Assembly: GCF_002896875.1 (NCBI RefSeq)
Contig: NZ_CP023278.1
Span: 5,092,501-5,156,500, forward strand
DNA: 64,000 nucleotides
Reading direction: 5' to 3'
Origin: Nostoc sp. CENA543
Lineage (GTDB): Bacteria; Cyanobacteriota; Cyanobacteriia; Cyanobacteriales; Nostocaceae
Below, in pieces: positions 4,300 through 19,241 of the stretch. The notes under the pieces were generated by a model. The model did not search any database and was not told the DNA's origin. It saw nothing but the letters and a program-made list of their open reading frames with translations. Made by a program: the position numbers and the translations under genes. Position 1 is the first letter of the stretch; each line of letters starts with the position of its first letter.

Positions 4300-7200
4300 A
4301 TGGCAGTTTCATTAGAGACAAGTTTTGTAATTCCAGGCTATCGCTTCACAGAGCAAATATACATAGGTAGCAAAACCATTGTCTATCGAGCTATTAGGTC
4401 AGCAGATGAAACACCAGTCATCATCAAACTGATGCGGAAAGAAAATCCCAATCTCAATGAAATTGCTCAGTTTCATAATCAATACACCATCACCAAAAAT
4501 CTAGACATACCAGGGATTATTAAACCCCTAAATATCGAAAATTATGGCGACAACTACGCCATAGTTTTGGAAGATATGGGCGGAATATCTCTATCAGAAT
4601 GGCGACGACAAAACGGTATCAGTCTAGAGGAATTCTTCTCGATAGCCATCAATATAGTCACTATCCTAGAAAAAATACATAAAGCCAGAATTATTCACAA
4701 AGATATCAAACCTGCCAATATCTTAATTAACCCAGAAACACAAGAAATTAGAATTATAGATTTCAGTATCGCCAGCTTGCTACCAAGGGAAATTCAATTA
4801 CTGAAAAACCCCAACGTCTTAGAAGGAACACTAGCGTATATATCCCCTGAACAAACCGGTAGGATGAATCGAGGTGTTGACTATCGTAGTGACTTTTATT
4901 CTTTGGGAGTGACCTTTTTTGAATTGCTCACGGGAGAATTACCTTTTAGTAGTAAAGATCCAATGGAGTTGGTCTACTGTCATATTGCCAAAATACCACC
5001 AAGATTAGGTCACAAAATCGAAATCCCGCAAGCTCTTGCAGATATTGTCATGAAGCTAATGGCAAAAAATGCCGAAGACCGTTATCAAAGTGCCTATGGT
5101 CTAATTCATGATTTAGAAACTTGTCAACAGCAGTGGCAAACTACAAAACAGATTACACAGTTTAATTTAGCAACTAAAGATATTGCTGACTGTTTCCTTA
5201 TTCCTGAAAAACTCTATGGTCGTCAAACAGCAGTAACAAATTTATTAGCTGCTTTTGAGCGTGTTACCCAGGGGAAAACAGAATTAGTATTAGTTGCGGG
5301 TGCTTCTGGGGTTGGGAAAACTGCTGTAGTAAATGAGGTACATAAGCCTATTGTTCGCCAACGTAGTTATTTTATTCAAGGTAAGTTTGAACAATTGCAA
5401 AGAGATATTCCCTTATTTGCTTTTGTGCAAGCATTTAAAGATTTAATTGGGCAGATTTTGAGTGAATCTGATGCTCAAATTCAAACTTGGAAAACTCAAC
5501 TTCAGTCAGCTTTAGGTGAACAAGCACAAGTCATAATTGATCTAATTCCAGATTTGGAACTAATTTTGGGTGAACAGCCTCCGGTGACTGGGTTAGCTGG
5601 GAATGCGGCGGAACATCGATTAAATTTATTATTGCAACGATTTATTCAGGTGTTTACAGCCAATGAACGTCCCTTAGTGCTGTTTTTAGATGATTTGCAA
5701 TGGGCTGATGCTGCATCTTTGAAGTTACTCCAACTATTAATGTCTCCCTCAGAATCATCCTTGACGGTGGCTGAATCTCATCTAGCTGAAAATTCTCACT
5801 CCGGTTTATTATTAATTGGTGCATATCGTGACCATGAAATTTTCCCAGGTCATCCTTTAGAACTGACCATTAATGAAATTCTTAAGTCAGATGGTAGCTT
5901 ACAAATTATAACTCTGGCTACCTTAACATTTGAAGATTTAACTCATCTTGTTACTGACACATTACATTGCCCAAAAAATCTGGCTATTCCTCTAACTCAA
6001 ATTATCTTTGCTACAACTCAAGGTAATCCTTTCTTTACTCATCAATTTCTAAAATATCTATATCAAGAAAATATCATTGAGTTCAATCATCATCTTGAAT
6101 ATTGGCATTGTGATATTAGCAAAGTTGAAGCATTGCAACTAACAGATAATGTAGTTGAATTTATGAAAATTCAATTACTGAAGCTACAACAATCAACTCA
6201 GCAAGCATTGCAACTAGCAGCTTGTATTGGGCATCATTTTGATTTAAAGACTTTAGCAATTGTTTATGAAAAGTCTTTAGCTGAGACTATATCAGATTTA
6301 CGTGCAGCGATGCTAGAAGGGATGATTTTACTGCAATCTGAAGTTTATCAGTTATTAGAAGTTAATACTGATCAACAATATCAGTTAGTTAATTCAGAAC
6401 AGGAAGAATCTACAAATTCTCTTTATCAATTATCTCAATGCCAATTTGTTCACGATCGCATCCAACAAGCTGCCTATTCTCTAATTCCAGAACAGCAAAA
6501 ACTCTCACTACATTTAAAGATAGGCAAATTACTATTTGATCATACTCCTACTAGTAAATTAGAAGAAAATATTTTTAGTATTGTCAATCAATTGAACATG
6601 GCAATACAGTTAATTGTAGAGCCTAGTGAACGTATTAAACTAGTCGAGATGAATCTCCAAGCTGGGCATAAGGCTTTAATTTCTACAGCCTATTCCTCAG
6701 CTAGAAAATATTTAAATACAGGTATTCAATTACTACCTCAGCAAAGTTGGGACACTCACTATCACCTCACTTTAGCTTTATATGAAACTGCCACCGAGAC
6801 ATCATATCTGGCTGGTGACTTTGAGCAAATGGAAGCATTAGCACAAGTTGTATTATCAAAAGCAAAAACCAAAATAGACCAACTGAAAATTTATGATGTC
6901 AAGATTAGAAACTATAGTTCGCAGGGTAAAGCACTAGAAGCCATTGAAATTGCGTTAGATTTTTGTCAGGTTTTAGGAGTGAAATTTCCCAAAAAGCCTA
7001 GCCAATTAGATGTACAACAAGAAATACAAAAAATCTATAGCAATTTAGCTAACAAGTGCATTGAAGATTTAATTGATTTACCAGAAATGCAAGATGTTGA
7101 AGCATTAGCTTTGATGCGAGTTCTTGCTAGTGCATTTAGTTCTTTTTACCAAGCTTTTCCAGCCCTTATGCCATTGGTATGTTTAAAACAAATAGATTTA

Positions 7201-9885
7201 TCATTACAGTTTGGTAATTCCCCTTTATCAGCCTTTGCATACGCTATTTATGGCTTTATGCTCTGTGGTGTAGTTGGTGATATTGCATCTGGTTATCAGT
7301 TTGGTAAATTAGCTGTCAATTTAGCTCATAAATTTAATGATAAAGAAGTCAAAGCCAAAAGTATGGGGACTTTTAACTCCCATATTAGTCACTGGCACAT
7401 TCATCTGAGAGATACATTAAAGAACTTTTTAGAAACCTATACAGTTGCACTGGAAACGGGAGATTTAGAATTTGCAGCTTTTTCGCTGCAAAATTATGGT
7501 TACTCTGCATTTTTTCTGGGTAAAGAACTAGGATATCTCCAACAAGAATTAGCTAAACATAGCTCTGCCATCAAGCAGATTAATCAAGAAAAAGTATTTT
7601 ATTGGCAGGAGATTTATCATCAGACAGTCTTGAATTTGCTAGAAGATAGAGAAAATAGCTTTGATTTATCGGGAGAAGTATACGACGAAGTAAAAATGCT
7701 ACCCATCCACCTCAAAGATAATGATGGTATAGCTATTTCACACTTGTATTTATGTAGGACTTATCTCTGCTATCTGTTTCAGGACTATAGCAAAGCCTGG
7801 GAAAATACCAAAAAAACGGCAGAGTTTTTACATGGTGGTGTAGGGACTTTAACTTACACTCAATTTCATTTTTATGATTCTCTAGTACGTTTAGCTGTAT
7901 ATATTGATCTGAGCGAATCTGAACAACAAGAAATTTTAGTGCAAGTCAAAGTTAATCAAGAAAAACTTCAGCATTGGGCAAGTTATGCACCGATGAATTA
8001 TTTACATAAATTTCATTTGGTAGAAGCTGAGTATCATCGGGTTTTAGATAATAAAACAGCAGCAATGGATAACTATGAGCGGGCTATAAATTTAGCTAAA
8101 GAAAATGATTATATTCATGAAGCAGCTTTAGCTTGTGAATTGGCTGCTCAATTCTATTTAGCATGGGGAAAACAAAGAATAGTACCCAACTATTTAACTG
8201 ATGCGTATCGCGCTTATCAACGTTGGGGTGCAGTTGCAAAAGTCAAACACCTCCAAAAACGCTATCCCCAATTACTCACACCCATAATTCAGCAAGAAAT
8301 GCTCAAAACTCAAATTGTCAGCAAACGAGAACCAATTACTGTTTCTATGCTGACATCTTTGTCTGCAACTAAAACTAGTGAAACGGTGATTAGTTCTCAC
8401 ACCAGTGTTTCTGAGATGCTGGATTTAGGAAGTGTGATTAAAGCATCTCAGTTACTCTCTGGAGAAATTGAACTAGAACAATTACTTTCTACTTTAATGG
8501 CTGTGGTGATGGAAAATGCTGGCGCATCAAAAGCAGTATTGATGTTGAGTGATAGTGATACAGATTTCAAAGTCACCGCCGTAAGTTATAGTGCTGAGAG
8601 TGGGAATATCTTGACTGATTTCCCATCAATTAATTTAGAAGATAGTCAAGATATTCCCCTGACTCTGATTAATTATGTCAAACGCACCAAAGAAATGTTT
8701 GTCTGTGATGATGCTAAAACAGTAGCGTTTTTAGCAGGCGATCGCTATATTCAAAACCAACAACCCCAAAGCCTAGTTTGCATTCCCATTATTAATCAAG
8801 GGAAGTTACTAGGTATGATGTACCTGGAGAATAATCTTACCATTGGGGCATTCACACGCGATCGCATTGAAGTCCTCAAACTCATCACCACCCAAGCCGC
8901 TATTTCTCTAGAAAATGCTATTCTCTACGAAAATCTCGCCACCGCCAATCAACGTTTAGAAGAACAAAACCAAACCCTAGAACAAAAAGTTGCCCAGAGA
9001 ACTCAAGAGTTAGAAGAAAAAAATCAATATTTACAACAAACCTTACTAAAATTACAACATACCCAAACCCAATTAGTACAAAGTGAAAAAATGTCTTCTT
9101 TGGGACAAATGGTAGCCGGAATTGCCCATGAAATCAATAATCCTATTAACTTTATTCATGGCAATATTAATCATGCCCATGACTATGTACAAGACTTACT
9201 AGATTTAGTCGAGATTTATCAACAAGAATATCCCAGCCCTTCTGATATCATTGCCGAAAAATCCCAAGCAATAGATATTAAATTCCTCATACAAGACTTA
9301 CCTAAAGTGCTGGACTCCATGAAAATCGGCAGTTCACGCATTCGTAATATTGTGATTGGGTTACGTAACTTTTCCCGTCTAGATGAATCAGAGATGAAAC
9401 CTGTAGATATACATGAAGGTATTGAAAGTACCCTCATGATTTTACAGCACAGACTCAAAGAAAAGAGTGATTCACCAGAAATTTTAGTTACAAAAGAATA
9501 TACCCAATTGCCATTGGTTAATTGTTATGCCGGTCAATTAAATCAAGTCTTTATGAATATCATTAGTAATGCTATTGACGCATTAGAAGATTCTAGATTG
9601 ACAGCTAGTGATCCATCAAAATATCTCCAGATTATCATTAAAACTGAGTTGTTAGCATCAAATACAGTTAGAGTGAGCATTACTGATAATGGTTCTGGGA
9701 TGACAGAAACAACCAAACAAAAAATATTTGACCCATTTTTCACTACTAAGCCTATCGGTAGTGGTACAGGCTTAGGGTTATCAATTAGCTATCAAGTAGT
9801 AGTAGAAAAACACAAAGGTCAGTTAACTTGTAATTCCACATTGGGTAAAGGAACTGAATTTTTAATTGATATTCCCATTCAATAG
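4300..9885 (+). CDS. HstK-type hybrid: Ser/Thr kinase + AAA ATPase + GAF + histidine kinase
   Basis: A very large 1861-residue signalling protein. The protein-kinase domain spans about 15-275, with catalytic Lys43, HKDIKPAN (Asp135, Asn140), DFS in place of DFG (154-156) and SPE in place of APE (182-184). A STAND/AAA-type NTPase follows, with Walker A GASGVGKT near 334-341 and Walker B LVLFLDD. A long helical TPR-like middle precedes a GAF sensor domain at about 1375-1545, a coiled coil, and a HisKA domain with GIAHEINNPINF (His about 1610). The HATPase domain ends the protein with DNGSGM and GTGLGLS. This architecture is the HstK/Pkn41 class known from heterocystous cyanobacteria. The ligand and output are unknown; no response regulator is adjacent. 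It is a monocistronic unit flanked by repeats. Confidence 0.93.
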   Translation: MAVSLETSFVIPGYRFTEQIYIGSKTIVYRAIRSADETPVIIKLMRKENPNLNEIAQFHNQYTITKNLDIPGIIKPLNIENYGDNYAIVLEDMGGISLSEWRRQNGISLEEFFSIAINIVTILEKIHKARIIHKDIKPANILINPETQEIRIIDFSIASLLPREIQLLKNPNVLEGTLAYISPEQTGRMNRGVDYRSDFYSLGVTFFELLTGELPFSSKDPMELVYCHIAKIPPRLGHKIEIPQALADIVMKLMAKNAEDRYQSAYGLIHDLETCQQQWQTTKQITQFNLATKDIADCFLIPEKLYGRQTAVTNLLAAFERVTQGKTELVLVAGASGVGKTAVVNEVHKPIVRQRSYFIQGKFEQLQRDIPLFAFVQAFKDLIGQILSESDAQIQTWKTQLQSALGEQAQVIIDLIPDLELILGEQPPVTGLAGNAAEHRLNLLLQRFIQVFTANERPLVLFLDDLQWADAASLKLLQLLMSPSESSLTVAESHLAENSHSGLLLIGAYRDHEIFPGHPLELTINEILKSDGSLQIITLATLTFEDLTHLVTDTLHCPKNLAIPLTQIIFATTQGNPFFTHQFLKYLYQENIIEFNHHLEYWHCDISKVEALQLTDNVVEFMKIQLLKLQQSTQQALQLAACIGHHFDLKTLAIVYEKSLAETISDLRAAMLEGMILLQSEVYQLLEVNTDQQYQLVNSEQEESTNSLYQLSQCQFVHDRIQQAAYSLIPEQQKLSLHLKIGKLLFDHTPTSKLEENIFSIVNQLNMAIQLIVEPSERIKLVEMNLQAGHKALISTAYSSARKYLNTGIQLLPQQSWDTHYHLTLALYETATETSYLAGDFEQMEALAQVVLSKAKTKIDQLKIYDVKIRNYSSQGKALEAIEIALDFCQVLGVKFPKKPSQLDVQQEIQKIYSNLANKCIEDLIDLPEMQDVEALALMRVLASAFSSFYQAFPALMPLVCLKQIDLSLQFGNSPLSAFAYAIYGFMLCGVVGDIASGYQFGKLAVNLAHKFNDKEVKAKSMGTFNSHISHWHIHLRDTLKNFLETYTVALETGDLEFAAFSLQNYGYSAFFLGKELGYLQQELAKHSSAIKQINQEKVFYWQEIYHQTVLNLLEDRENSFDLSGEVYDEVKMLPIHLKDNDGIAISHLYLCRTYLCYLFQDYSKAWENTKKTAEFLHGGVGTLTYTQFHFYDSLVRLAVYIDLSESEQQEILVQVKVNQEKLQHWASYAPMNYLHKFHLVEAEYHRVLDNKTAAMDNYERAINLAKENDYIHEAALACELAAQFYLAWGKQRIVPNYLTDAYRAYQRWGAVAKVKHLQKRYPQLLTPIIQQEMLKTQIVSKREPITVSMLTSLSATKTSETVISSHTSVSEMLDLGSVIKASQLLSGEIELEQLLSTLMAVVMENAGASKAVLMLSDSDTDFKVTAVSYSAESGNILTDFPSINLEDSQDIPLTLINYVKRTKEMFVCDDAKTVAFLAGDRYIQNQQPQSLVCIPIINQGKLLGMMYLENNLTIGAFTRDRIEVLKLITTQAAISLENAILYENLATANQRLEEQNQTLEQKVAQRTQELEEKNQYLQQTLLKLQHTQTQLVQSEKMSSLGQMVAGIAHEINNPINFIHGNINHAHDYVQDLLDLVEIYQQEYPSPSDIIAEKSQAIDIKFLIQDLPKVLDSMKIGSSRIRNIVIGLRNFSRLDESEMKPVDIHEGIESTLMILQHRLKEKSDSPEILVTKEYTQLPLVNCYAGQLNQVFMNIISNAIDALEDSRLTASDPSKYLQIIIKTELLASNTVRVSITDNGSGMTETTKQKIFDPFFTTKPIGSGTGLGLSISYQVVVEKHKGQLTCNSTLGKGTEFLIDIPIQ

Positions 9886-10138
9886 ACCTGTCTTAAAAAT
9901 GGGGATTGGGTATTGGGAATTGGGTATGGGAAAATTGATTTTTATTGTTCCGTTGAGAGCATAGCTCATAGAATATTTTGCAAAATTAATGATTATAGTG
10001 TAATTATTTTCATCCTTGCGCCTACTCTACGAGTTCCGCGTTATCAGTATGCACGAAACAAAAAAAATACACCCTAGTTTATAGAGTGTATACATATTAT
10101 GTTATGGCAGTAGAATATCAATATAAATTCACAATACT
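9886..10138. other. Intergenic region after the kinase gene
   Basis: No gene is visible. There is a short GGGGATTGGGTATTGGG repeat patch at 9899-9930, then AT-rich DNA containing a possible short hairpin around 10060-10095 (CACCCTAGTTTATAGAGTG). It separates the convergent kinase and monooxygenase genes. Confidence 0.5.
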
Positions 10139-10231
10139 AATAACCAATGACTAATGACTATTGACTATTGACTATTGACTATTGACTATTGACTAATGAC
10201 TATTGACTATTGACTATTGACTATTGACTAA
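10139..10231. repeat. Heptanucleotide tandem repeat array (TGACTAT/TGACTAA)
   Basis: About 13 units of the 7-bp sequence TGACTAT or TGACTAA run head to tail, ending inside the last codons of the monooxygenase gene. Such short tandemly repeated sequences are a known hallmark of heterocystous cyanobacterial genomes. Other copies are at about 17050-17133, 17838-17908 and 28500-28567. Confidence 0.9.
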
Positions 10232-11771
10232 CACCAACAGTTTCACGAGGCTTGATAGTAAAACTATCTACATAAGAAGGTCTTCTTAACTTTAAAGTCT
10301 GTCTAATTCGTTGATAATTAGCTGGAGACATAGGTGAAATATTCTTGAGTATTTTCTGCCAAATTGGCGAAGTATCTACTATCCCCATATCACTCATTAA
10401 TTCATCAATATAATGAAAACTGAACGGGAATATCGATGTGCCATGATGTAAACCATATTCCCATTCTTGCTTTTTCCATTGCCACTCTAAAGCTATTTCT
10501 TCTAACATCTTTTGTGGTGTAGGCAAATTGAGATTACCTTGGAAGTATTCCAGTAACCACTGAGAATTAATATCTGATGTTAGGGGGCAGAATTTGCTGG
10601 AGTTGTAACCCACAAAACCAAGGTTGGGAATATGAGGGTGAATAATATTGCGGTAAAGTTGAAAATTTCCTTGTTTATCTATTAAGGTTTGACGATCTTC
10701 TGCTGCTAAAAACGGTACATCTTGACGAAATCCTGTACCGAATACCACAATATCCGCAGGTATATGTTCTCCAGTGGCTAACTCTACACCATCAGCAACA
10801 AACCGTTTAATTTCAGTTTTTTTTGCTTGAATCTTCCCAGAAGCAACATACTGATAAAAATTAGGAGTTTCTAAAGCGATAGAAGAAACCACCCATTTAG
10901 TCAGGGGTTGATCAGGAATCATTCCGCAAGCATCTAACTTGAGTTGATAGCGGAGTAGTATTTCATTAATGCGCCAAAAAGCCCAGACTAATGGCTTACC
11001 AATACTGTGTAGTAGCCATTCCATACCCTCTAACTTACGATATGGTAGCCAGCTTTCAGCAAAGCGTGTTAACAAAACATACTTAATATTTACTTTTCCC
11101 AAGAAGAATTTAGGAATCTTCCAAGGTATTTGACGAAACACCATTGTGCATTTTGCAGATACATCAGCAGATAGAGTGGCGATGTCAGTCGCAGATTTAC
11201 CCAGACCTACCACAACTACCCGCTTACCTTCTACAATCGAGGTGTTATTAAATTCTGTGGTGTGTAATACTTGACCCCCAGCAGCAATAAATTCTTCTTT
11301 TCCAGGTAGAGAAGGTTGGTAAGGAATATGAAAAATTCCAGTACACACAACTACAAAATCAAACTCTAATTGTTCCTGTTGAAGTTCTCCAGAAACCTGA
11401 TCACGAAACCGAATATTAACTAACCATTTTGGTATTTCTGAAGTTTTTCTGGTGACTTGAGTTACTTCCGTTTGAAAACGGATTCTGGGAGTTACACCAA
11501 AATGTTCGGCGTAAGATATTAAGTAATTGCGTGTTTGCTCTGCGGTCGGCCATTCTGGATAGGATGCAGGCATGGGATAATCAGGGAAGGCATAGGTATC
11601 GCGGGGGCTTTGAATAGTCAACCCTGGATAGACTCTAGATTTTTCCCACACACCACCTATTCCCGCTTGTGTTTCAAACACAGTGACTTCATAGCCAGTT
11701 TCTATAAAGTTTCTTGCTGTGACTAATCCACTAACGCCAGCCCCAATTACACATACTTTCTTTGTTTGCAT
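10221..11771 (-). CDS. FMO-type flavin-dependent monooxygenase, last gene of the RiPP-like locus
   Basis: A 516-residue class B flavoprotein. The N-terminal FAD Rossmann motif is VIGAGVSG (residues 8-15). A degenerate FMO/Baeyer-Villiger fingerprint reads AGGQVLHTTEF (Phe of FxGxxxHxxxF replaced by Ala). The NADPH-binding Rossmann motif is VVVGLGKSATD, and the late VFGTGFR motif is present. The family uses NADPH and O2 to oxygenate N, S or ketone substrates. It is the most downstream gene of the same-strand series oxidase, repeat peptide, halogenase, FMO, with a 114-bp gap from the halogenase. Its stop codon and final Ser-Gln lie inside a heptamer repeat array, so the extreme C-terminus is repeat-encoded. 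Family is secure; a role in modifying the repeat peptide is inferred from context only. Confidence 0.85.
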   Translation of the reverse strand: MQTKKVCVIGAGVSGLVTARNFIETGYEVTVFETQAGIGGVWEKSRVYPGLTIQSPRDTYAFPDYPMPASYPEWPTAEQTRNYLISYAEHFGVTPRIRFQTEVTQVTRKTSEIPKWLVNIRFRDQVSGELQQEQLEFDFVVVCTGIFHIPYQPSLPGKEEFIAAGGQVLHTTEFNNTSIVEGKRVVVVGLGKSATDIATLSADVSAKCTMVFRQIPWKIPKFFLGKVNIKYVLLTRFAESWLPYRKLEGMEWLLHSIGKPLVWAFWRINEILLRYQLKLDACGMIPDQPLTKWVVSSIALETPNFYQYVASGKIQAKKTEIKRFVADGVELATGEHIPADIVVFGTGFRQDVPFLAAEDRQTLIDKQGNFQLYRNIIHPHIPNLGFVGYNSSKFCPLTSDINSQWLLEYFQGNLNLPTPQKMLEEIALEWQWKKQEWEYGLHHGTSIFPFSFHYIDELMSDMGIVDTSPIWQKILKNISPMSPANYQRIRQTLKLRRPSYVDSFTIKPRETVGVSQ

Positions 11772-11885
11772 TATTAGTTTTGTCCTGTATTCAGAGGGAA
11801 TGGGGAATGGGGAATGGGAAAAATCTTTACTAATTCCCTGTTCCCTACCCCCACCAAAGAACTTTTTCCGCCAGCCCTAAGTAAA

Positions 11886-13613
11886 TTAACTACGACCGGA
11901 GTAATGTAATTGACCTTCAACGGGCATAGAAATTTTCAGTGGTGGTTTCTCAGGATTTAAAGAGGCTTTTACCCAACCTTCTAAAGCCATGACTTCTAAG
12001 CAGAACATTGTATGCTGGATGGCGATGCGGAGATGTTCGGCGGGAAAGCGGTTCTTGAACAAACTAATGAGGTAATGATAAATTTGCTCAATATCAGACG
12101 TACGGCTGAGAATATCAATTAATAAACCATAAAGACCGGTAATCGGTAAGCGATCGCCATTTTCTCTGCGGTAGCATTTTACTCGTGTAATTGCACCGTT
12201 GCTATACACAGCAACGAATTCTTCTTGGGTGTCGTCAATGTTTAACTCAAAGACGTTGTAACCGCTAATTTCCCAAGGTAATTCCTCTTTGGAAAAACGC
12301 TGTACCATCTGTTTCATCGCCCCTAAGTCAAAGCCACCAATGACAGCTTGACCAACAATATCATTGGTAAAACCACCTTGGGCTAACCAGCGAAAGGCTT
12401 CGGCGGGACTGAGATTTAAACCGGCTTCTTTGGCGATGGTTTGACAGTGGTCATATAAGTCTGTAAATTGACCATTGGCAGCATACCAGTAATCTGCAAA
12501 GCGGATATGCTGTTGGACGCGACGGCGTTGATTATGGTCGTATTGGCTTTTTAACCAATCTGCATCATATTGATTTTGGAGTAGTGCAGATATGGTGTAT
12601 GCTAACTCCTTACCGCCTACATGGGTGAGAGTTAAACCCGCAGATAAAATCGGATCAGCAAAACCTGCGGCTTCTCCTACTAAAAACCAGTTTTCCCCTG
12701 TGGTTCTCTCTGCTAGGAAAGACCAATCTTTCGTAATCTCAATATTACCTCTGCTAGTAGCATTAGCCAGCAGCTTAGAAATTAGCGGTTCATCTTGGAG
12801 TGCTTGATGATAAATCTCTGCGGCTGATTTTTTCGCTTGTTTGTAATAGCTAGCTGGACAAACAAAACCAACACTAGTACGGGTGGGGCTGAGGGGAATA
12901 AACCAAATCCATCCGTGTGGTAAGCTCATTATCTGTATGCGAGTCCCACCCACACCAATTTCTACCGCCCACTCTGCATTTTCCCAATAATCCCAGATGG
13001 CGACATTTTGCAGTTGTGTAGGACATTCTGTTTGCACACCTACAGCTTTTCGCAATACACCGACATGGCCAGAACCATCAACGTAGTAAGTTGCAGTGAT
13101 TGTTTCCCCAGTATTCAAGTGTAAGGCCGTGATGCGATGGGCTACGCCCCGCCGGAGGCTATCGCCTTGTGTATCTACTTTCACCACTGCTGTTTGTTCT
13201 CTGACTTCACATCCCAATTCTTCAGCATGACGCAGCAGAATCTCATCATAAACCGCCCGGTCTACTTGAAACGCTGTTTGTTTGCGTTGTCCTGTAAACT
13301 TGGCTGGACGAGGTTCATCTTTAAATTCCTCTAGACGTAAAAAGTGAAACTCCCAAGGTTCTGGATCTTTTCCCCAGCGATAGTTACCCCCAACTTTAAT
13401 GGGGAAATTAGCAGCTTCTACTTTATCCCAACATCCCATCTCATCAAGGATTTCACTAATCTGCGGTAGCTGACTTTCACCCACATGATCCCGTGGAAAC
13501 TTTTCTTTTTCCAGAATTAATACACGCAATTGAGGATTATACTTTTTCAATAGAGTGCCGGTTGTGCTACCTGCGGGGCCACCACCAACAATTACAACAT
13601 CATAATGGTTCAT
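11886..13613 (-). CDS. Flavin-dependent halogenase (tryptophan halogenase family)
   Basis: A 575-residue FAD enzyme. GGGPAG (10-15) binds FAD. A candidate catalytic lysine is Lys73 in NFPIKVGGNY. The halogenase-specific motif GWIWFIP (GWxWxIP) is at 234-240, and FADPILSAG at 318-326 fits the FxxPxxSxG halogenase motif. These features separate it from ordinary FAD monooxygenases and geranylgeranyl reductases, which share the fold. Known members chlorinate or brominate Trp, phenol or pyrrole rings through HOX, using FADH2. No flavin reductase gene is adjacent. Residues about 149-160 (GDSLRRGVAHR) are encoded by a dispersed genomic repeat. It lies about 200 bp downstream of a gene for a peptide with an invariant Trp in seven repeats, which suggests a peptidyl substrate. 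Halogenation activity and substrate are inferred. Confidence 0.8.
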   Translation of the reverse strand: MNHYDVVIVGGGPAGSTTGTLLKKYNPQLRVLILEKEKFPRDHVGESQLPQISEILDEMGCWDKVEAANFPIKVGGNYRWGKDPEPWEFHFLRLEEFKDEPRPAKFTGQRKQTAFQVDRAVYDEILLRHAEELGCEVREQTAVVKVDTQGDSLRRGVAHRITALHLNTGETITATYYVDGSGHVGVLRKAVGVQTECPTQLQNVAIWDYWENAEWAVEIGVGGTRIQIMSLPHGWIWFIPLSPTRTSVGFVCPASYYKQAKKSAAEIYHQALQDEPLISKLLANATSRGNIEITKDWSFLAERTTGENWFLVGEAAGFADPILSAGLTLTHVGGKELAYTISALLQNQYDADWLKSQYDHNQRRRVQQHIRFADYWYAANGQFTDLYDHCQTIAKEAGLNLSPAEAFRWLAQGGFTNDIVGQAVIGGFDLGAMKQMVQRFSKEELPWEISGYNVFELNIDDTQEEFVAVYSNGAITRVKCYRRENGDRLPITGLYGLLIDILSRTSDIEQIYHYLISLFKNRFPAEHLRIAIQHTMFCLEVMALEGWVKASLNPEKPPLKISMPVEGQLHYSGRS

Positions 13614-13732
13614 AAGAATTTGGGATTTGTGAAGAGTAAATTTTGCACTGCAACAATCACTGTCAAACCACAGACAATTGCTTTGATCTAACTATCAGCT
13701 TCTCTATCAAAGATAATTTTCTACTTTAATAG

Positions 13733-13777
13733 AGCATACTGAAAACACACCTACCCATAGGAAAGTTTCAGTATGCT
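13733..13777 (-). terminator. Hairpin between precursor-peptide and halogenase genes (candidate attenuator)
   Basis: AGCATACTGAAA (13733-13744) and TTTCAGTATGCT (13766-13777) form a perfect 12-bp stem with a 21-nt loop. It lies in the 196-bp gap after the peptide gene. There is no strong T-run on the minus strand, so partial termination or mRNA stabilisation is more likely than a full stop. Such hairpins often allow a precursor to be made in excess over its modifying enzymes. Confidence 0.5.
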
Positions 13778-13809
13778 AATAGTTAGACGAGCAATCTACT
13801 TTTTAACTT

Positions 13810-14103
13810 TTAAGCATTACCAGATAATGCAGCTTTTGCGTTGCCCATAGCAGGATAGTTAATATCTAGATTTTCAGTCCAAGTATGGGAAAATTCTAGA
13901 TTTTCAGTCCAAGTATGGGAAAATTCTAAATTCTCAGTCCAGGTATGAGAAATATTCAAATTTTCAGTCCAAGTGTGGGAGATATCCAAATTCTCAGTCC
14001 AGGTGTGGGAGAATTCTAAATTCTCAGTCCAGGTATGGGAGATATCTAAATTTTCAGTCCAGGTGTGAACGATATCAAGGGTTTTTTGTTGTACATTAGA
14101 CAT
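13810..14103 (-). CDS. Multi-repeat (7x HTWTENL) precursor-like peptide
   Basis: A 97-residue peptide: a 12-residue N-terminus (MSNVQQKTLDIV), then seven contiguous 10-residue units, then a 15-residue tail (YPAMGNAKAALSGNA). Every unit is HTWTENL followed by (D/E/N)(I/F)(S/N), with no phase slip. Between units the codons vary only synonymously at His (CAT/CAC), first Thr (ACT/ACC), Glu (GAA/GAG) and Leu (CTA/TTA/TTG), so the peptide sequence rather than the DNA is conserved. There is no signal peptide, no Cys and no GG cleavage site. The form resembles a multi-core RiPP precursor. It sits between a diiron-oxidase-like gene and a halogenase gene on the same strand. I do not recognise it as a member of any named family. 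A structural repeat protein is the alternative. Confidence 0.8.
   Translation of the reverse strand: MSNVQQKTLDIVHTWTENLDISHTWTENLEFSHTWTENLDISHTWTENLNISHTWTENLEFSHTWTENLEFSHTWTENLDINYPAMGNAKAALSGNA
13858..14067 (-). repeat. Seven in-frame 30-bp tandem repeats inside the precursor gene
   Basis: Seven 30-bp units encode the HTWTENL cores. The two units nearest the 3' end are nearly identical, suggesting recent duplication. The others differ mainly at third codon positions. Confidence 0.9.
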
Positions 14104-14381
14104 GATTTTGATCCTCAGTCAGTGGGTAAATTGGGGTAGGTGCTAAACATAAAAATTCTGCTATATTCAGGCACTGCAACTTATTAACAGTTCTCTACAA
14201 TTAAGCAACAGATGCAAACATTGAAGCCCAGATATTATCTGAGTTTATTAATAGCTATCTTATCTACGAGAGCCACGCCAACGTAGCGGGACGTTAGCCC
14301 ATCGCAATTGCAAATTAATTGGCATTAGACTACTTTCAAGGATTCACTTGTAGTCATCAAGTTATATTGCATAGAATTAAG
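14104..14381. other. Leader region of the peptide gene with an interspersed repeat copy
   Basis: The 5' part next to the peptide start should carry its promoter or ribosome-binding site; GAGGATCAA lies just upstream of the ATG on the minus strand. From about 14205 to 14325 there is a copy of a dispersed repeat (AGCAACAGATGCAAA..., then GCGGGACGTTAGCCCATCGCAATTGC) that is also found near 24970-25075 and, rearranged, at 40030-40170. Confidence 0.55.
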
Positions 14382-15125
14382 TTAGGCGGCTGAGACAGTA
14401 TTATTAATCGGAGATATCTGTTTCAGTTCTAGCTGCTGATTATGAGTGATAGCATATTGAAAGAGTGCATTGACTAATTCTGTAATTAGGGCAAATATCT
14501 TCTCTGCCAGTTCCAAAGCAGATTGAGATTGCACTGGTGTCAATTCCAAGCTTTGTAGCGAAGTTTCTATGTTATCCGTACCTGTAGTATGACCAGTTTC
14601 TACAGCTAGATGAAATCCTCCAAAATACAGATATTTATCCCCTGTCAATACTTGCAATTCTTGGGCAACTTTCGTAGCATGGGCAAACACAATATTGCCT
14701 GTAGACTCTAATACCTCAATAATGACTAGTTTATGGAGAGGATCTGATTTCCACGCATAAAAAAATAGTTGATGAATTACCCAGCGAGGTATTTGAGTTT
14801 CTTCATCCCATAAAAATTTTACGGTGTCACTGAATTTTAACGAGCAATCAAAGCCAAGTTTTTCCATATCTGAGAGAAACCATAGCCAGTGATGGTCATC
14901 CTCTTCAGTATGTTTATTAATGATTATCTGAATAGGATCATTACTTGTCAAATCCCGAAATGCGTATTTGTTCAGTTCTCCAAACCCCATGATAAAAGGT
15001 GTGGCACAAGGACTCCAAGCCAATCTTTGGATTGGTTCTATGCTGGTGTCTTGCATGAATTTCAACAAAGGTAAATGGGCAAACTCTTGCTTCTTGGCAT
15101 CAATGAATGCAAGTATTTCCTTCAT
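14382..15125 (-). CDS. Heme-oxygenase-like diiron oxidase (HDO) family protein
   Basis: A 247-residue all-helical protein without signal peptide. Candidate ligands fit the HDO pattern known from CADD, UndA and SznF: an ExxH pair (Glu75, His78), a central helix with Glu137 or Glu140, and HLAVETGH giving His172-x3-Glu176-x2-His179. In characterised members the last motif is H-x3-D-x2-H, so Glu176 would replace the usual Asp. HDOs use two irons and O2 for N-oxygenation, C-C cleavage, desaturation or hydroxylation. It is the first gene of the four-gene locus and lies directly upstream of the repeat peptide. A role as a tailoring oxidase is inferred. The fold call is moderately sure; the reaction cannot be read from sequence. 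A TenA-like or non-metal relative is the alternative. Confidence 0.65.
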   Translation of the reverse strand: MKEILAFIDAKKQEFAHLPLLKFMQDTSIEPIQRLAWSPCATPFIMGFGELNKYAFRDLTSNDPIQIIINKHTEEDDHHWLWFLSDMEKLGFDCSLKFSDTVKFLWDEETQIPRWVIHQLFFYAWKSDPLHKLVIIEVLESTGNIVFAHATKVAQELQVLTGDKYLYFGGFHLAVETGHTTGTDNIETSLQSLELTPVQSQSALELAEKIFALITELVNALFQYAITHNQQLELKQISPINNTVSAA

Positions 15126-15785
15126 ATTTAATGCCCTATATCCGATAAATAATTTAGCTGCGGAAAATCATGAAAACATAGCACTCATAATCTTGCTAGT
15201 TTTTCTACTTATTGAATATCTTGAGTGCTAGAAATGGAATCTGAATGAACTTATTAACTATTTTTTAATATTTTTCTTTTAATAAAGATATCCGTGTGAT
15301 TCGCTATTTTTGTATGTAAAAAAGTCTACATTAATACAATGTATTTTTAAACACCAGCTTTTAATATTTACTGAGAATAACAAATAGAAAAATTTAATCA
15401 GGTATATATTTTGCTCCAGTGCTGATGGTGAACAGAATACACATCAATAGATTTGATTCTCCAAAGAAATAGAAGTGATACAAAAGACAATTTTTTTTGT
15501 GGTTTATACTTAATTGTCAAGGTTTGACGATAATTCACAATCGGCAAAATCTGGGCTATTACAGATTTTGAGAAAAAATAAAGGCGGAAAATCCTATATT
15601 TAGGTTGATGCTACTAGCAAGCAATTGATTTGAGAGTGTGTTAATTTACGTAGTCAATATTACATATAAATTTTCTTAGTGATTCATATTTAAAGATCAA
15701 TCAAAAGATAGATGATAAAAAATTGAATATTAATTAAGCTTGTACTAAGGTTATATTATCTACCTTAAAAATTGTGCCTAAAAAT
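15126..15785. other. Long AT-rich region upstream of the RiPP-like locus
   Basis: These 660 bp carry no supportable gene on either strand. The part nearest 15125 must contain the promoter of the minus-strand locus. A perfect NtcA-type palindrome lies at 15316-15329. Several long T and A runs occur. Nothing else is recognised. Confidence 0.5.
15316..15329. promoter_or_regulatory. Possible NtcA site (GTA-N8-TAC)
   Basis: GTAAAAAAGTCTAC matches the NtcA consensus GTAN8TAC exactly. Read on the minus strand, a TAN3T-like -10 element (TATCTT) begins 26 nt further, slightly beyond the usual 20-24 nt. It is about 190 bp from the diiron-oxidase start. The motif is short enough to occur by chance several times in this window. 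Confidence 0.3.
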
Positions 15786-16832
15786 CTAACTTAAAACTTC
15801 ACCTAACAAATTACGATGTTGCAATGCGCCATCTATGAGTATTTGGATAGTTGCAGATGAGATTGCCTGACCATTAGTGTAATATTCTATCCAAGTTTGA
15901 CTAATTAACTGTGGTTCATCTGGTAAATTAACTAAGTCCCAGCCAGGTATCATCAAATCTTCCATTAAACGATTAACTTTGGGGTCATAACTCAAAGCAA
16001 AACAGCGACAGCCTTCAGCCGCAGCCATAATTAAACTGTGGAGTCGCATTCCAATTACCATTTCTACATCTCGAAATACGCCCTTTAATATCTGCGGATC
16101 TTCAAGAGACAAAATCTGACTGACATCTGCAAGGTGTGGCTGTATAGCTTGAGCAATTTCCAGGTCTTCACTTTTTTGGAATGGCAGCAAAATAATAAAA
16201 CTTTGAGTAGCTTTTTGAAACTCTACTAAAGCATGAATGAAATTGGCTAAACGCGCTTCCGTTAATTGGGGATGCTTCCTTAAAGTGACAGCGACTCTAG
16301 GCTGGGGTAAATCCCAAATTGCGGGTACTGGTTTAGCAGCTAAAGCCCAGACAGGATCAGGTGCAATGATGTGGGGGATTTGCCAATCAGATAATAAAGC
16401 TGAACTGGCGCGATCGCGTACACTGACTTTAGTACAACCAGTAAAATTTTGTCTTGCTAACCATCGAGTTTGGGGGCGCACCAAAGGGCCAATACCCTGC
16501 GCCCAAGCAATAGTTTTTAAACCCATACTTTGGGCTAACGCCATCAACCCCCCATAGTAAAAAGGACTTATGGTGCTAGTAACATCCTGAATTAGACTCC
16601 CTCCACCCCAAATCAAAGCATCACAGGAACGTAAAGCTTGCAATACAGCCAGGGGTGACATTCGGTCATAGGCTTCTACATTGTAGCGATCGCGCGTTTG
16701 TTCTGGATTGCCCGACAACACCACAGGCGTGACATGAGATGGTAGCATTTGCAGTAGTGTAGCTAACAAAGCCTCATCACCACCGTTGCCCTTACCGTAA
16801 TACCCAGATAATAGCGATCGCATCTTTACCAC
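15786..16832 (-). CDS. csaB: Polysaccharide pyruvyl transferase CsaB
   Basis: A 348-residue cytoplasmic enzyme of the polysaccharide pyruvyltransferase family (PF04230). The N-terminal SGYYGKGNGGDEALL motif is characteristic of CsaB, and further conserved blocks are visible: WGGGSLIQD, AQGIGP and the C-terminal MRLHSLIMAAAEG. CsaB transfers pyruvate from PEP to wall or exopolysaccharide sugars; the pyruvylated polymer anchors SLH-domain proteins. That fits with the SLH porin gene some 10 kb away, though they are not in one operon. Length is normal and the start codon is followed directly by the conserved motif. It is monocistronic on the minus strand. Confidence 0.88.
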   Translation of the reverse strand: MVKMRSLLSGYYGKGNGGDEALLATLLQMLPSHVTPVVLSGNPEQTRDRYNVEAYDRMSPLAVLQALRSCDALIWGGGSLIQDVTSTISPFYYGGLMALAQSMGLKTIAWAQGIGPLVRPQTRWLARQNFTGCTKVSVRDRASSALLSDWQIPHIIAPDPVWALAAKPVPAIWDLPQPRVAVTLRKHPQLTEARLANFIHALVEFQKATQSFIILLPFQKSEDLEIAQAIQPHLADVSQILSLEDPQILKGVFRDVEMVIGMRLHSLIMAAAEGCRCFALSYDPKVNRLMEDLMIPGWDLVNLPDEPQLISQTWIEYYTNGQAISSATIQILIDGALQHRNLLGEVLS

Positions 16833-17143
16833 AAAAAATTTTGAATATCGGATTTAAGGTTATCAACTTTTTCGGATTACTTCACCCAATGTCAGCCATC
16901 TTGCTACAAAAAGTTGAATAAGCCTGTGCGAAGATTAAGTGAGTGCTGAGTAATGAGTGCTGAGTGCTGAGTGCTGTTAGCGGTAGCGCGGCGTTTAGCC
17001 GGTGCTGTTAGCGGAAGCGGGGCGTTTAGCCCGTGCTGAGTAATGAGTTCTGGGTGTTAAAGTCTAATAACTAATGACTAATGACTAATGACTAATGACT
17101 AATGACTATTGACTATTGACTATTGACTATTGACTAACTTTCT
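16833..17143. repeat. Composite intergenic repeats: GTGCTGAGT units, TTAGCGG..CGTTTAGCC copies, TGACTAA heptamers
   Basis: From 16940 there are GAGTGCTGAGT units and two tandem copies of the TGTTAGCGGTAGCGCGGCG...TTTAGCC family (about 16976-17035). About eleven TGACTAA/TGACTAT heptamers follow at 17070-17136, ending right before the DUF2499 start. No gene is visible. Confidence 0.8.
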
Positions 17144-17491
17144 ATGCACGCTCTTTCAATTCCCACTTGGATTATTCATGTTTCTAGCGTCATTGAGTGG
17201 ATGGCGGCGATTTGGTTAATTTGGACTTATGGCGAACTCACTGGAAATCGTAGCTGGTGGGGATTGTCTTTGGGGATGTTACCAGCTTTGGTGAGTGCTA
17301 TGTGTGCTTGCACTTGGCATTATTACGACAATGCCGAATCTTTAGAATGGTTAGTAACCTTGCAAGCTACTATGACTGTAGTTGGTAATTTTACCCTTTG
17401 GGCTGCGGCGGTGTGGATTTGGCGTGAATCCCGTAGTACCAAGACAGAAACAGATTCTTTTGAGCCGAAATCTATTAAATCAGAGCGATGA
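17144..17491 (+). CDS. DUF2499-domain membrane protein
   Basis: A 115-residue protein conserved in cyanobacteria and plastid-bearing eukaryotes (DUF2499). Three hydrophobic segments are seen at about 10-28, 42-58 and 72-95, the first preceded by HALSIPTWIIHVSSVIEW, which is very typical of the family. Function is not known. Its stop overlaps the start of the next gene by 4 bp (ATGA), a translational coupling that pairs it with DUF3593, and the two families often occur together. It begins only a few bases after a heptamer array. Confidence 0.85.
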   Translation: MHALSIPTWIIHVSSVIEWMAAIWLIWTYGELTGNRSWWGLSLGMLPALVSAMCACTWHYYDNAESLEWLVTLQATMTVVGNFTLWAAAVWIWRESRSTKTETDSFEPKSIKSER

Positions 17492-17775
17492 TATCGAAAG
17501 ACACCCTTTTTGCCTTATCACTGTTTCCTTACCTGGGTTTCTTGTGGTTTATCACCCGCAGTCAACAATTACCCCGTTTAGCATTGTATGGATTTTACGG
17601 GACGTTGGTTTTTGTAGCGGTGACAATTCCCGCCGGCATATACGCCAAAATTCATTATGGCGAAGCCCTAGCTAACATCGATTGGCTGCATGGTGGTGCA
17701 GAAGTTTTCTTGACACTTTCTAATATTTTGGTTGTCTTGGGCTTCCGTCAAGCTGTGATGCAGTTGAAGAAGTAG
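17488..17775 (+). CDS. DUF3593-domain membrane protein
   Basis: A 95-residue membrane protein of the cyanobacterial/plastid DUF3593 family, with hydrophobic segments near 7-24, 32-52 and 70-88 and the conserved FPYLGFLWF start region. It overlaps the DUF2499 gene by 4 bp, so the two are almost certainly co-translated and may form one membrane complex. Function is unknown. A G-rich heptamer array starts immediately after its stop codon. Confidence 0.85.
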   Translation: MISKDTLFALSLFPYLGFLWFITRSQQLPRLALYGFYGTLVFVAVTIPAGIYAKIHYGEALANIDWLHGGAEVFLTLSNILVVLGFRQAVMQLKK

Positions 17776-17925
17776 GGATTGGGGATTGGGGATTGGGGAC
17801 TGGGCAGGGGGCAGGGGGCAGGGGGCAGGGAGATAAAACTAATGACTAATGACTAATGACTATTGACTAATGACTATTGACTAATGACTATTGACTATTG
17901 ACTATTGACCATACAGGGAAAAATT
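17776..17925. repeat. GGGGATT/GGGGCAG and TGACTAA/TGACTAT heptamer arrays
   Basis: GGGGATTGGGGATTGGGGACTGGGCAGG.. units (17776-17832) are followed by about ten TGACTAA/TGACTAT units (17838-17908). The array fills almost the whole gap before hisA, so the hisA promoter is either within it or further upstream. Confidence 0.85.
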
Positions 17926-17929
17926 TACT

Positions 17930-18703
17930 ATGGATGTGATTCCAGCAATTGATTTATTAGATGGTCGTTGTGTGCGACTGTATCAAGGAGACTACGATCG
18001 CTCTCAGGTTTTTAGTGAAAATCCTGTGGATGTGGCTAAACAATGGGCAGATCAAGGTGCGACTAGATTGCACATTGTGGATTTAGATGGTGCAAAGGCT
18101 GGTAAAGTAGTAAACTTGCAGGCGATTGAAGCGATCGCGCAAGCAATTTCTATCCCCATTGAAATTGGTGGTGGACTGCGTGACCAAGCTAGTGTACAAC
18201 AAGTATTTGATTTGGGTGTACGCTGGGCGATTCTCGGTACTGTCGCTGTTGAACAACCCCAATTAGTACAACAACTGTGTCAAGAGTTTCCTGACAAAAT
18301 TATTATTGGCATTGATGCGCGGAATGGACTAGTAGCGACTCGTGGTTGGTTGGAAACTTCACAGGTATTAGCTACCCAACTCGCTGTGCAGATGCAAGAA
18401 CTGGGAGCAGCTGCAATCATTTACACTGATATTCACCGTGATGGGACTCTCGAAGGGCCAAACCTAGAAGCATTGCGAGAACTCGCTGCTGCAATTTCTA
18501 TTCCTGTGATTGCGTCTGGGGGTGTTAGTTCTGTGACTGATTTGTTGAGTTTGTTGGCTCTAGAACCCCAAGGCGTTACAGGTGTAATTGTCGGGCGCGC
18601 CCTGTATACTGGTGATATTTCGTTAAGGGAAGCATTGCAAGCGATCGGGTCAGGACGAATTCAAGATATCCCACCCAATTTAGATTTTTCTTCTTTCGCT
18701 TAA
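17930..18703 (+). CDS. hisA: Phosphoribosylformimino-5-aminoimidazole carboxamide ribotide isomerase
   Basis: HisA catalyses the fourth step of histidine synthesis, isomerising ProFAR to PRFAR in the cytoplasm. The 257-residue (beta/alpha)8 protein begins [17 protein letters not shown], with the catalytic Asp of PAIDL and the paired Asp in [10 protein letters not shown]. The phosphate-binding loops EIGGGLR and IASGGVSS are intact. It stands alone rather than in a his operon, as is common in cyanobacteria. Confidence 0.95.
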
Positions 18704-18898
18704 TATTAACTGCTAAATTACTGATTGTAATTTCTGGAAAACGCCCTGACACCGTTGTAGCTTTAAATATAGAGAGTTAATCAACGGTTTGTCTATCTTT
18801 CTTCATTACTGTAACTGCATGGTTGTATAAATGCAGTCAAGTTTACTAGTTAATTGCTCTAGTTCTATTTGCTAAATCTAATTGGGTTTCCTTCTCTT

Positions 18899-18931
18899 AA
18901 GAGGCGTAAAATTAATTACGTCTCTTTTTTA
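18899..18931 (+). terminator. Intrinsic terminator-like hairpin
   Basis: AGAGGCGTAA (18900-18909) pairs with TTACGTCTCT (18916-18925, one G-U) and is followed by a T run. It lies about 200 bp after hisA, so it either ends a long hisA 3' UTR or a short transcript from 18704-18899. A small ATGCAGT hairpin occurs in that interval, but no RNA family is recognised. Confidence 0.6.
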
Positions 18932-19016
18932 TTATGTAAAATTTTTAACTATTTTCAGAAAATAGCCATATGCTAGATGTAGATAAACATTGTCTTTAAT
19001 TACACTACTTCGCCTT

Positions 19017-19130
19017 ATGTCTAGCCAACAACCTAATTCCAAACAACCACCCAATCAAAAAACAACTAACACCAGTAAGACTAGAAAGAAACCCCTCAAT
19101 AATGGTCGTCCAGATAAAACAGACCATTAA
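19017..19130 (+). CDS. Possible small basic protein (37 aa)
   Basis: ATG at 19017 opens a 37-codon frame ending TAA at 19128. The product is very hydrophilic, rich in Gln, Asn, Lys and Thr (MSSQQPNSKQPPNQ..., ..PDKTDH) and has no hydrophobic segment. The composition differs from random translation of the AT-rich surroundings. Its stop codon overlaps the left arm of an inverted repeat. I cannot name a family, and it may not be translated. Confidence 0.35.
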   Translation: MSSQQPNSKQPPNQKTTNTSKTRKKPLNNGRPDKTDH

Positions 19131-19186
19131 GTTTGTAGTAAGGACTTTAGTCCTGAGATGAGGACTGAAGTTCTTACTACAAACTT
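19129..19186. repeat. 26-bp inverted repeat (AAGTTTGTAGTAAG arms)
   Basis: Arms at 19129-19154 and 19161-19186 match at 24 of 26 positions with a 6-bp loop; the central part reads AGGACTTTAGTCCT..AGGACTGAAGT. It lies between a plus-strand region and the 3' end of the coiled-coil operon and may act as a bidirectional terminator, or be a palindromic mobile repeat. Confidence 0.65.
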
Positions 19187-19241
19187 ATTCTTCCCTAACA
19201 AACCTAAACTGTATTAAAAACTAAAAAACTTCTGCACTTAA

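Follow-up and report, generated by a model that had tools for sequence, protein, structure and literature searches.

The window analysed here is a stretch of 64,000 nucleotides from Nostoc sp. CENA543 (contig NZ_CP023278.1, positions 5,092,501 to 5,156,500), and the subject of this report is a cluster of four minus-strand genes within it. In the order in which they are read, these encode a heme oxygenase-like diiron oxidase (HDO; 247 aa, positions 14382-15125) homologous to the enzyme AetD; a 97-aa repeat peptide (13810-14103), the candidate precursor or scaffold, with homologues at 15 further distinct loci; a 575-aa flavin-dependent halogenase of the CmlS/CndH type, predicted to chlorinate or brominate tryptophan (11886-13613; Trp_halogenase, PF04820, E 3.3e-39); and a 516-aa, accessory monooxygenase of the flavin-containing monooxygenase (FMO) type (10221-11771; PF00743, E 7e-50). 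Open reading frames (ORFs) of at least 60 aa overlapping positions 5000-20000 were listed and the six main ones, lying between 4300 and 16832, were scanned with Pfam; neither the peptide nor the HDO gave a match above cut-off. A first-pass annotation, made by reading the DNA alone, had described these four genes as a candidate cluster for a ribosomally synthesized and post-translationally modified peptide (RiPP), and the four ORFs were all found on the minus strand, with seven copies of HTWTENL counted in the peptide as it had reported. It had also placed the genes between repeat-filled gaps. On the FMO side this holds, as about 12 copies of the heptanucleotide TGACTAT lie at 10136-10230, downstream of the FMO gene; the listing of tandem arrays on the HDO side, which covered positions 15126-15300 only, held none.

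The seven HTWTENL copies, recovered by pattern matches, recur at ten-residue spacing with three-residue linkers between them (13867-14067, minus strand), and the DNA beneath them forms a 30-bp tandem array (13861-14064). The window holds 7 stretches of DNA that can encode HTWTENL, whereas 100 shuffles averaged 0.00, and since the unit is also kept at the protein level across species, the array lies beyond what chance would give. An earlier, pattern-based count (75 units in 15 peptides, with 30 DNA and 3 amino-acid spellings) was partly circular, because the pattern fixes most of the letters, and was replaced by reading units in blind ten-residue steps from the first HTW to the last Trp of 15 peptides, the irregularly spaced peptide of locus L011 being left out. 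This blind stepping gave 73 units, which form 58 pairs of adjacent repeats. Within these pairs, the codons of the seven HTWTENL positions differed 77 times synonymously and 0 times with a change of amino acid, whereas the three linker positions showed 32 and 33, respectively; the synonymous share expected of random single changes is about 0.21. The His, Thr, Trp, Thr, Glu and Leu residues were identical in all 73 units and the Asn in 70, its position being Thr in all three units at L048. Copy number varies between peptides from three to seven, some arrays are flanked by partial units without Trp, and short tails lie around the array. The first unit is preceded by 12-19 residues in 15 of the 16 peptides; the exception in this count is again L011, whose start is unclear and whose peptide shows, besides its irregular spacing, ENM and EKL variants and an early stop.

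We examined how widely the peptide, the HDO and the halogenase travel together. A scan of 84,980 species genomes with the peptide pattern, which detects close relatives only, returned 13 loci, 12 of them cyanobacterial (Nostoc, Anabaena, Trichormus, Calothrix, Microcoleus, Tychonema and relatives); at each of these 12 the HDO, peptide and halogenase genes follow in that order on one strand, the halogenase of L013 being cut by the contig end. The thirteenth match, L014 in the Bacteroidales, was a single unit-like match within a 618-aa protein and was set aside as chance. Searches of genomes added L047, L048 and L049, bringing the collection, with the window included, to 16 distinct loci, and in 16/16 of the distinct loci found the three genes stand together in the same order. 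Among 291 genomes of the order, halogenases at 70% identity or more and clear peptide matches (E below 1e-10) fell in the same nine genomes, and among 386 genomes of the phylum halogenase and peptide fell in the same six; the two genome sets overlap, and with shared ancestry the events are not independent. Score was the sole ground for discarding the weak peptide matches in the order (E 1.3e-6 to 7.5e-4, 13-39% identity), which lay in nine genomes without a clear peptide and at a second place in G255. The halogenases of 15 peptide loci grouped together against two distant outgroups. Beside the distant halogenase relatives of G216 and G227 (35-38% identity) the ORF list held neither a repeat peptide nor an HDO, and 72,556 plasmid records yielded no halogenase match at E 1e-60. 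Peptide, halogenase and HDO are conserved as a unit across all 16 of these loci. The co-occurrence of such repeats with PF04820 halogenases and the HDO, for which the first-pass annotation had recommended a search, is borne out at all 16 loci; peptides lacking the halogenase or the HDO, which it had named as evidence against its proposal, were not seen for clear matches, the nine weak-match genomes lying outside this check. Its inclusion of the FMO as a cluster member is less well supported: the FMO is an optional accessory outside the core set, present in 4 of 14 assessable peptide loci (the window, L002, L004 and L047), with the sequences of L003 and L013 ending too soon.

When compared by phmmer with sequences of the PDB, the HDO matched AetD (8ji2) at E 8.5e-54, the next other match standing at 0.047, and the alignment was ungapped over 231 residues with 38.5% identity, so that the two proteins can be numbered in common. 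The six iron ligands (D76, H79, E140, H172, E176 and H179) are kept in the window HDO, as are F44 and Y167; its AlphaFold model (mean confidence, pLDDT, 82) retrieved AetD structures at all of Foldseek ranks 1-21, with template-modelling (TM) scores of about 0.85. These matches identify the HDO as homologous to the (bromo)tryptophan nitrile synthase AetD, with which it shares family and fold. In AetD, Fe1 binds the amine and carboxylate of Trp, Phe44 forms an indole clamp and Tyr167 gives a hydrogen bond to the substrate carboxylate, according to the part of PMC10654658 drawn on here; SktA converts 5-bromo-Trp to 5-bromoskatole (PMC13108848, in part). The substrates described for these two enzymes are free bromo-Trp, whereas the window HDO adjoins a repeat peptide and a CmlS-type halogenase. 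For the window HDO, action on (halo)tryptophan is more likely than the oxidation of His or Asn that had been suggested for this cluster, since the known substrates of AetD and SktA are free Trp derivatives and Tyr167 and Phe44 are kept; for the same reason the end product may be a small indole. Across the peptide loci (20 HDO rows from 15 distinct loci) the six ligands are kept in all rows save that of L048. At positions 142/214, which are A/S in AetD and T/F in SktA (PMC13108848, same portion), the window HDO has T/I, and the 20 peptide-locus rows have T with either F (14 rows) or I (6 rows), a likeness nearer to SktA than to AetD that rests on two residues. F at 214 was also present in 42 of 46 other full-ligand HDOs of the family, and so is the usual family state and no mark of the peptide loci.

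AetD-like HDOs were found in 59 of the 291 genomes of the order, and 80 HDO loci were read, namely the 20 rows from peptide loci, which stand for 15 distinct loci, together with 60 loci without the peptide; a few weaker or fragmentary matches were left out. The HDO tree excludes six identical or near-identical rows (L002, L003, L004, L005, L008 and L009) and 13 HDOs without the iron ligands. In this tree the Nostoc and Microcoleus peptide loci and L085 formed one group (support 89); the L011 HDO paired with that of the peptide-less L092 (support 99), and the L048 HDO with that of the peptide-less L128 (support 78). The HDOs of the peptide loci thus do not form a single clade, and the peptide-halogenase pair occurs with two, probably three, HDO lineages. 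Locus L085 (8769-11995), from another genus of the family, combines an HDO with a Trp-5-halogenase, an FMO and a kinase, with no peptide; its genome (G240) gave no peptide in the order or phylum searches. The L085 FMO falls in the same BLAST cluster as the window FMO, and the L085 halogenase matches 8fov at E 2.5e-183 and carries the motif ATFSTI, which compares with halogenase group B1 (PMC8269204). The L085 cluster is likely a halo-indole pathway, in which a free-Trp 5-halogenase would stand in place of the peptide-halogenase pair.

Other members of the HDO family lie in different surroundings. A Calothrix plasmid carries an HDO with a monooxygenase, a short-chain dehydrogenase/reductase and a kinase; beside the plasmid HDO of Cupriavidus (L149) no peptide or halogenase was seen by eye. 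Thirteen paralogues (L118, L121, L123, L124, L129-L132, L134, L135 and L137-L139) have Tyr for His79 and Tyr or Cys for His172, and lie between apparent ndk and proB genes (by eye); these thirteen are possibly a metal-free, non-enzymatic branch. A flavoprotein of 533-593 aa with an FMO-like N-terminus adjoins the HDOs at L086 (8844-10625), L098 (6117-7892) and L136 (6332-7933); these flavoproteins were considered as AetF-like halogenases and set aside, no PDB match of the L086 or L098 protein being named AetF, and the C-terminal piece of the L098 protein resembles MshE/PilF. Seven AetD-like HDOs from another family of the order (L087-L090, L093, L096 and L101) form a tight clade, four of them adjoining genes for GGxGND-rich repeat proteins (RTX-like by eye) and none having a kinase within the stretch read.

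The halogenase aligned over about residues 3-385 with its best PDB matches, 8zop, CndH (3e1t), CmlS (3i3l), Mpy16, PltA and ChlB4. It has GxGxxG, K73 within FPIK, WIWFIP and FADPILSAG, and we take GxGxxG to be the FAD motif, the Lys to be catalytic, and WxWxIP and FxxPxxSxG to be further motifs of flavin-dependent halogenases; GxGxxG, the Lys and WxWxIP are kept in 12 aligned orthologues. The substrates of the 8zop/CndH/CmlS/PltA group are mostly carrier-protein-bound. The window enzyme shares with CmlS, CndH and PltA the motifs and the alignment, and differs in that no carrier-protein, nonribosomal peptide synthetase or polyketide synthase gene was recognised beside it and in having a C-terminal domain (about 440-575) for which no convincing Pfam or NCBIfam family was found. 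The first-pass annotation had cited MibH as an example; 5uao, the MibH structure, was absent from the 14 PDB matches of the window halogenase at E up to 1e-10, and the enzyme is of the CmlS/CndH type, not the MibH/PrnA type. The 5uao chain was instead matched by the L085 halogenase. In the AlphaFold model of the window halogenase, residues 454-551 form four strands, three helices and a strand, an order resembling that of a RiPP recognition element (RRE; PqqD), at an overall pLDDT of 47; no PqqD-like RRE was matched in the C-terminal domain by hmmscan or by PDB profile search, and hhalign of this domain versus 13 cyanobacterial PqqD sequences gave a probability of 0.13%. The first-pass annotation had seen no RRE protein, and these searches found none either. 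A fold search with the whole halogenase, given the poor model, was used only as agreement with CmlS.

Between the stop codon of the peptide gene and the start of the halogenase gene lies a perfect 12-bp stem-loop (13733-13777, minus strand), which was equalled in 0/200 dinucleotide shuffles. Perfect stems of 9-15 bp were found between these two genes in 11 of 12 loci, the exception being L003; when each locus was given 200 dinucleotide shuffles, no shuffle attained the observed stem at 8 of these 11 loci, and between 1 and 5 did so at the remaining 3. A comparable stem was present in 1 of 10 tested gaps between HDO and peptide genes (L002). The stem sequences of Nostoc differ from those of Microcoleus, the best stem of L009 sits in an apparent dispersed repeat, and the L011 gap was measured from the early stop. 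The hairpin probably serves to keep mRNA for the precursor more abundant than mRNA for the enzymes.

Convergent with the cluster on the plus strand is the gene for a giant protein of 1861 aa (4300-9885), in which Pfam domains read Ser/Thr kinase, AAA, GAF and histidine kinase; this kinase, of the type that accompanies the family of the window HDO, had gone unmentioned in the first-pass annotation. In 24 of the 60 non-peptide loci the HDO had a kinase of this kind longer than 1500 aa no more than about 3.1 kb away, and a giant kinase stood beside the cluster in 7 of the 9 genomes of the order with the peptide (not in G077 or G274). The CENA543 genome itself has 18 such kinases in 7.2 Mb, a density at which about 3% of genes picked arbitrarily would have one that close, a figure for this genome only. 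Of 82 neighbourhoods read, 80 with an AetD-like HDO among them, 58 contained either a giant kinase or a shorter member of its BLAST cluster, and the kinase was often convergent with the HDO even where there was no peptide or halogenase. The kinase tree divided the HDO-linked kinases into several groups, not one; of 16 kinases of the CENA543 genome without an HDO, only that of L150, a locus with no HDO, fell inside an HDO-linked group. The kinase could possibly be a sensor of the HDO product, or a regulator.

We favour, at a probability of roughly 0.4, a reading in which the peptide is the substrate of the halogenase and serves as a scaffold that releases halo-Trp to the HDO, every reaction in it being one we infer. 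The flavin halogenase would recognise HTWTENL and halogenate its Trp within the peptide, a step we consider reasonably probable; cellular proteases might then free halo-Trp, or short pieces ending in it, for which the odds seem about even. With a similar, evenly balanced chance, judged by homology, the HDO would bind this halo-Trp through the amine and carboxylate of the amino acid and cleave it by oxidation, yielding a halogenated indole (a halo-skatole or an indole nitrile, for instance). The FMO, where present, would oxidise the resulting indole, and sensing or regulation of the product may fall to the neighbouring kinase. Halo-Trp would in this way come from the peptide-halogenase pair in place of a free-Trp halogenase, which would make the system a bacterial parallel to thyroglobulin. 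This serial order is suggested because the homology of the HDO leads one to expect free (halo)Trp, L085 has a free-Trp halogenase, and the window has a peptide and a carrier-type halogenase in that very place. The fullest version of the proposal, in which a Trp-repeat scaffold is halogenated as a peptide and broken down to feed a nitrile- or skatole-forming diiron oxidase, the kinase senses the indole product, and the CmlS-type enzyme counts as a fifth peptidyl-Trp halogenase from a lineage other than that of MibH, is put forward tentatively.

Several observations weigh against the scaffold proposal. Half of the aligned halogenase orthologues (6 of 12) carry Ala where FxxPxxSxG has Ser, and QhpG and LodB are among the distant halogenase relatives (NCBIfam), so that a hydroxylase is possible; the halogenase model (pLDDT 47) is too poor for a peptide groove to be inspected. 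On the side of the HDO, L048 has E in place of D76, Y167 is F in 2 of the 20 rows (L008 and its duplicate L046), and the grouping of L085 with Nostoc has a support of only 59, with weak deeper nodes. The ORFs around the window cluster included none recognisable as a protease for the release step. AetD requires no halogen on its substrate (PMC10654658, the part cited above), and since it accepts unhalogenated Trp, HDO and halogenase need not act serially. Finally, the entire HTWTENL unit is fixed while its linker is free, a pattern no less suited to a peptide product than to a mere donor of Trp.

This last point leads to a close rival of the scaffold reading, a multi-core RiPP, which is the model of the first-pass annotation with the HDO now aimed at Trp: the Trp would be halogenated, the HDO would oxidise on the peptide (for example at a terminal Trp after cleavage), the FMO would act where present, and the product would be cut into identical short peptides. 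We regard it as a serious if tentative possibility. A fixed seven-residue unit with a free three-residue linker has the pattern of core plus linker, compatible with the earlier suggestion that the repeats are cores; copy number of 3 to 7 with short tails flanking the array, a hairpin suited to precursor excess, a conserved small precursor gene beside modifying enzymes at 16/16 loci found, and an apparent divergent pair of ABC transporter genes next to the L048 HDO (by eye) would all sit well with a RiPP. The grip of AetD Fe1 on both amine and carboxylate (PMC10654658, again in part) and retention of the carboxylate-binding Tyr in the HDO speak for a free amino acid instead; in addition, the ORF list, Pfam, hmmscan and hhalign pointed to neither a PqqD-like RRE nor any other RiPP enzyme, and with only 12-19 residues before the first unit in 15 of 16 peptides there is no long leader. 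Peptide nitriles are made by another type of enzyme in the portion of PMC13060819 used here.

Two further explanations were weighed. It could be that the genes serve parallel functions, the HDO making an unhalogenated indole signal sensed by the kinase while peptide and halogenase act separately, for example as a halide sink or a modified structural peptide. The 24 of 60 loci having HDO and giant kinase without a peptide, the few HDO paralogues that adjoin a recognised halogenase and the activity of AetD on unhalogenated Trp (PMC10654658, as before) would fit such an arrangement, which we nevertheless hold to be unlikely: the HDO is present at 16/16 peptide loci with more than one HDO lineage paired, which is hard to explain without functional coupling, and L085 pairs an HDO with a Trp halogenase. 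Much the least probable is that the small ORF is a Trp-sensing leader peptide and the hairpin an attenuator of the halogenase gene. The richness of the ORF in Trp codons and the hairpin ahead of the halogenase gene do recall trp leader regions, where Trp codons precede a hairpin; such a leader, however, needs only its sensed codons, whereas His, Thr, Glu, Asn and Leu here are as fixed as Trp (77 synonymous versus 0 changing differences), and the array spans about 200 nt.

The scaffold reading invites comparison with described systems in which Trp is modified on a ribosomal peptide. MibH, SrpI, MppI and ChlH, from lanthipeptide, proteusin and lasso peptide systems, are the sole four halogenases said to act on Trp inside peptides in the part of PMC12424672 consulted, and systems of this kind are described in PMC12615548 and, for MppI, PMC11791876, so far as the sections used extend. 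These four resemble the window in that a flavin halogenase is encoded beside a Trp-containing ribosomal peptide; the window differs in that its enzyme matches CmlS, CndH and PltA and its peptide has a short N-terminus followed by tandem repeats. With the pearlins (e.g. ammosamide) the scaffold reading shares modification of a Trp tethered to a ribosomal peptide, proteolytic release and small-molecule tailoring, but in pearlins the Trp is added post-translationally by peptide aminoacyl-tRNA ligases (PEARLs) and chlorination follows release (PMC12424672, the same part), whereas the window Trp is encoded in the repeats; no PEARL gene was recognised by Pfam near the peptide among the six main ORFs. 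HTWTENL did not occur in the literature searched, most subscription papers lying outside that search, and no cluster with a repeat precursor plus halogenase and diiron enzyme, an HDO or AetD with a precursor peptide, or a halogenated scaffold peptide was found in the literature searched by title or abstract; an earlier description elsewhere is possible. New here are the AetD homology of the HDO, the L085 arrangement, the pairing of peptide and halogenase with two or probably three HDO lineages, and the kinase that accompanies the HDO family.

If the scaffold reading is true, it would represent a new route from a ribosomal peptide to small halo-indoles and would join two separate fields, peptidyl-Trp halogenation and the AetD/SktA diiron oxidases that dismantle halogenated Trp, the HTWTENL array offering a halogenase of another lineage a minimal substrate built of repeats. 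The 16 loci, with two or three HDO lineages and L085 as a natural control, form a ready comparison set, and the giant Ser/Thr-His kinase emerges as a recurring neighbour of AetD-like HDOs.

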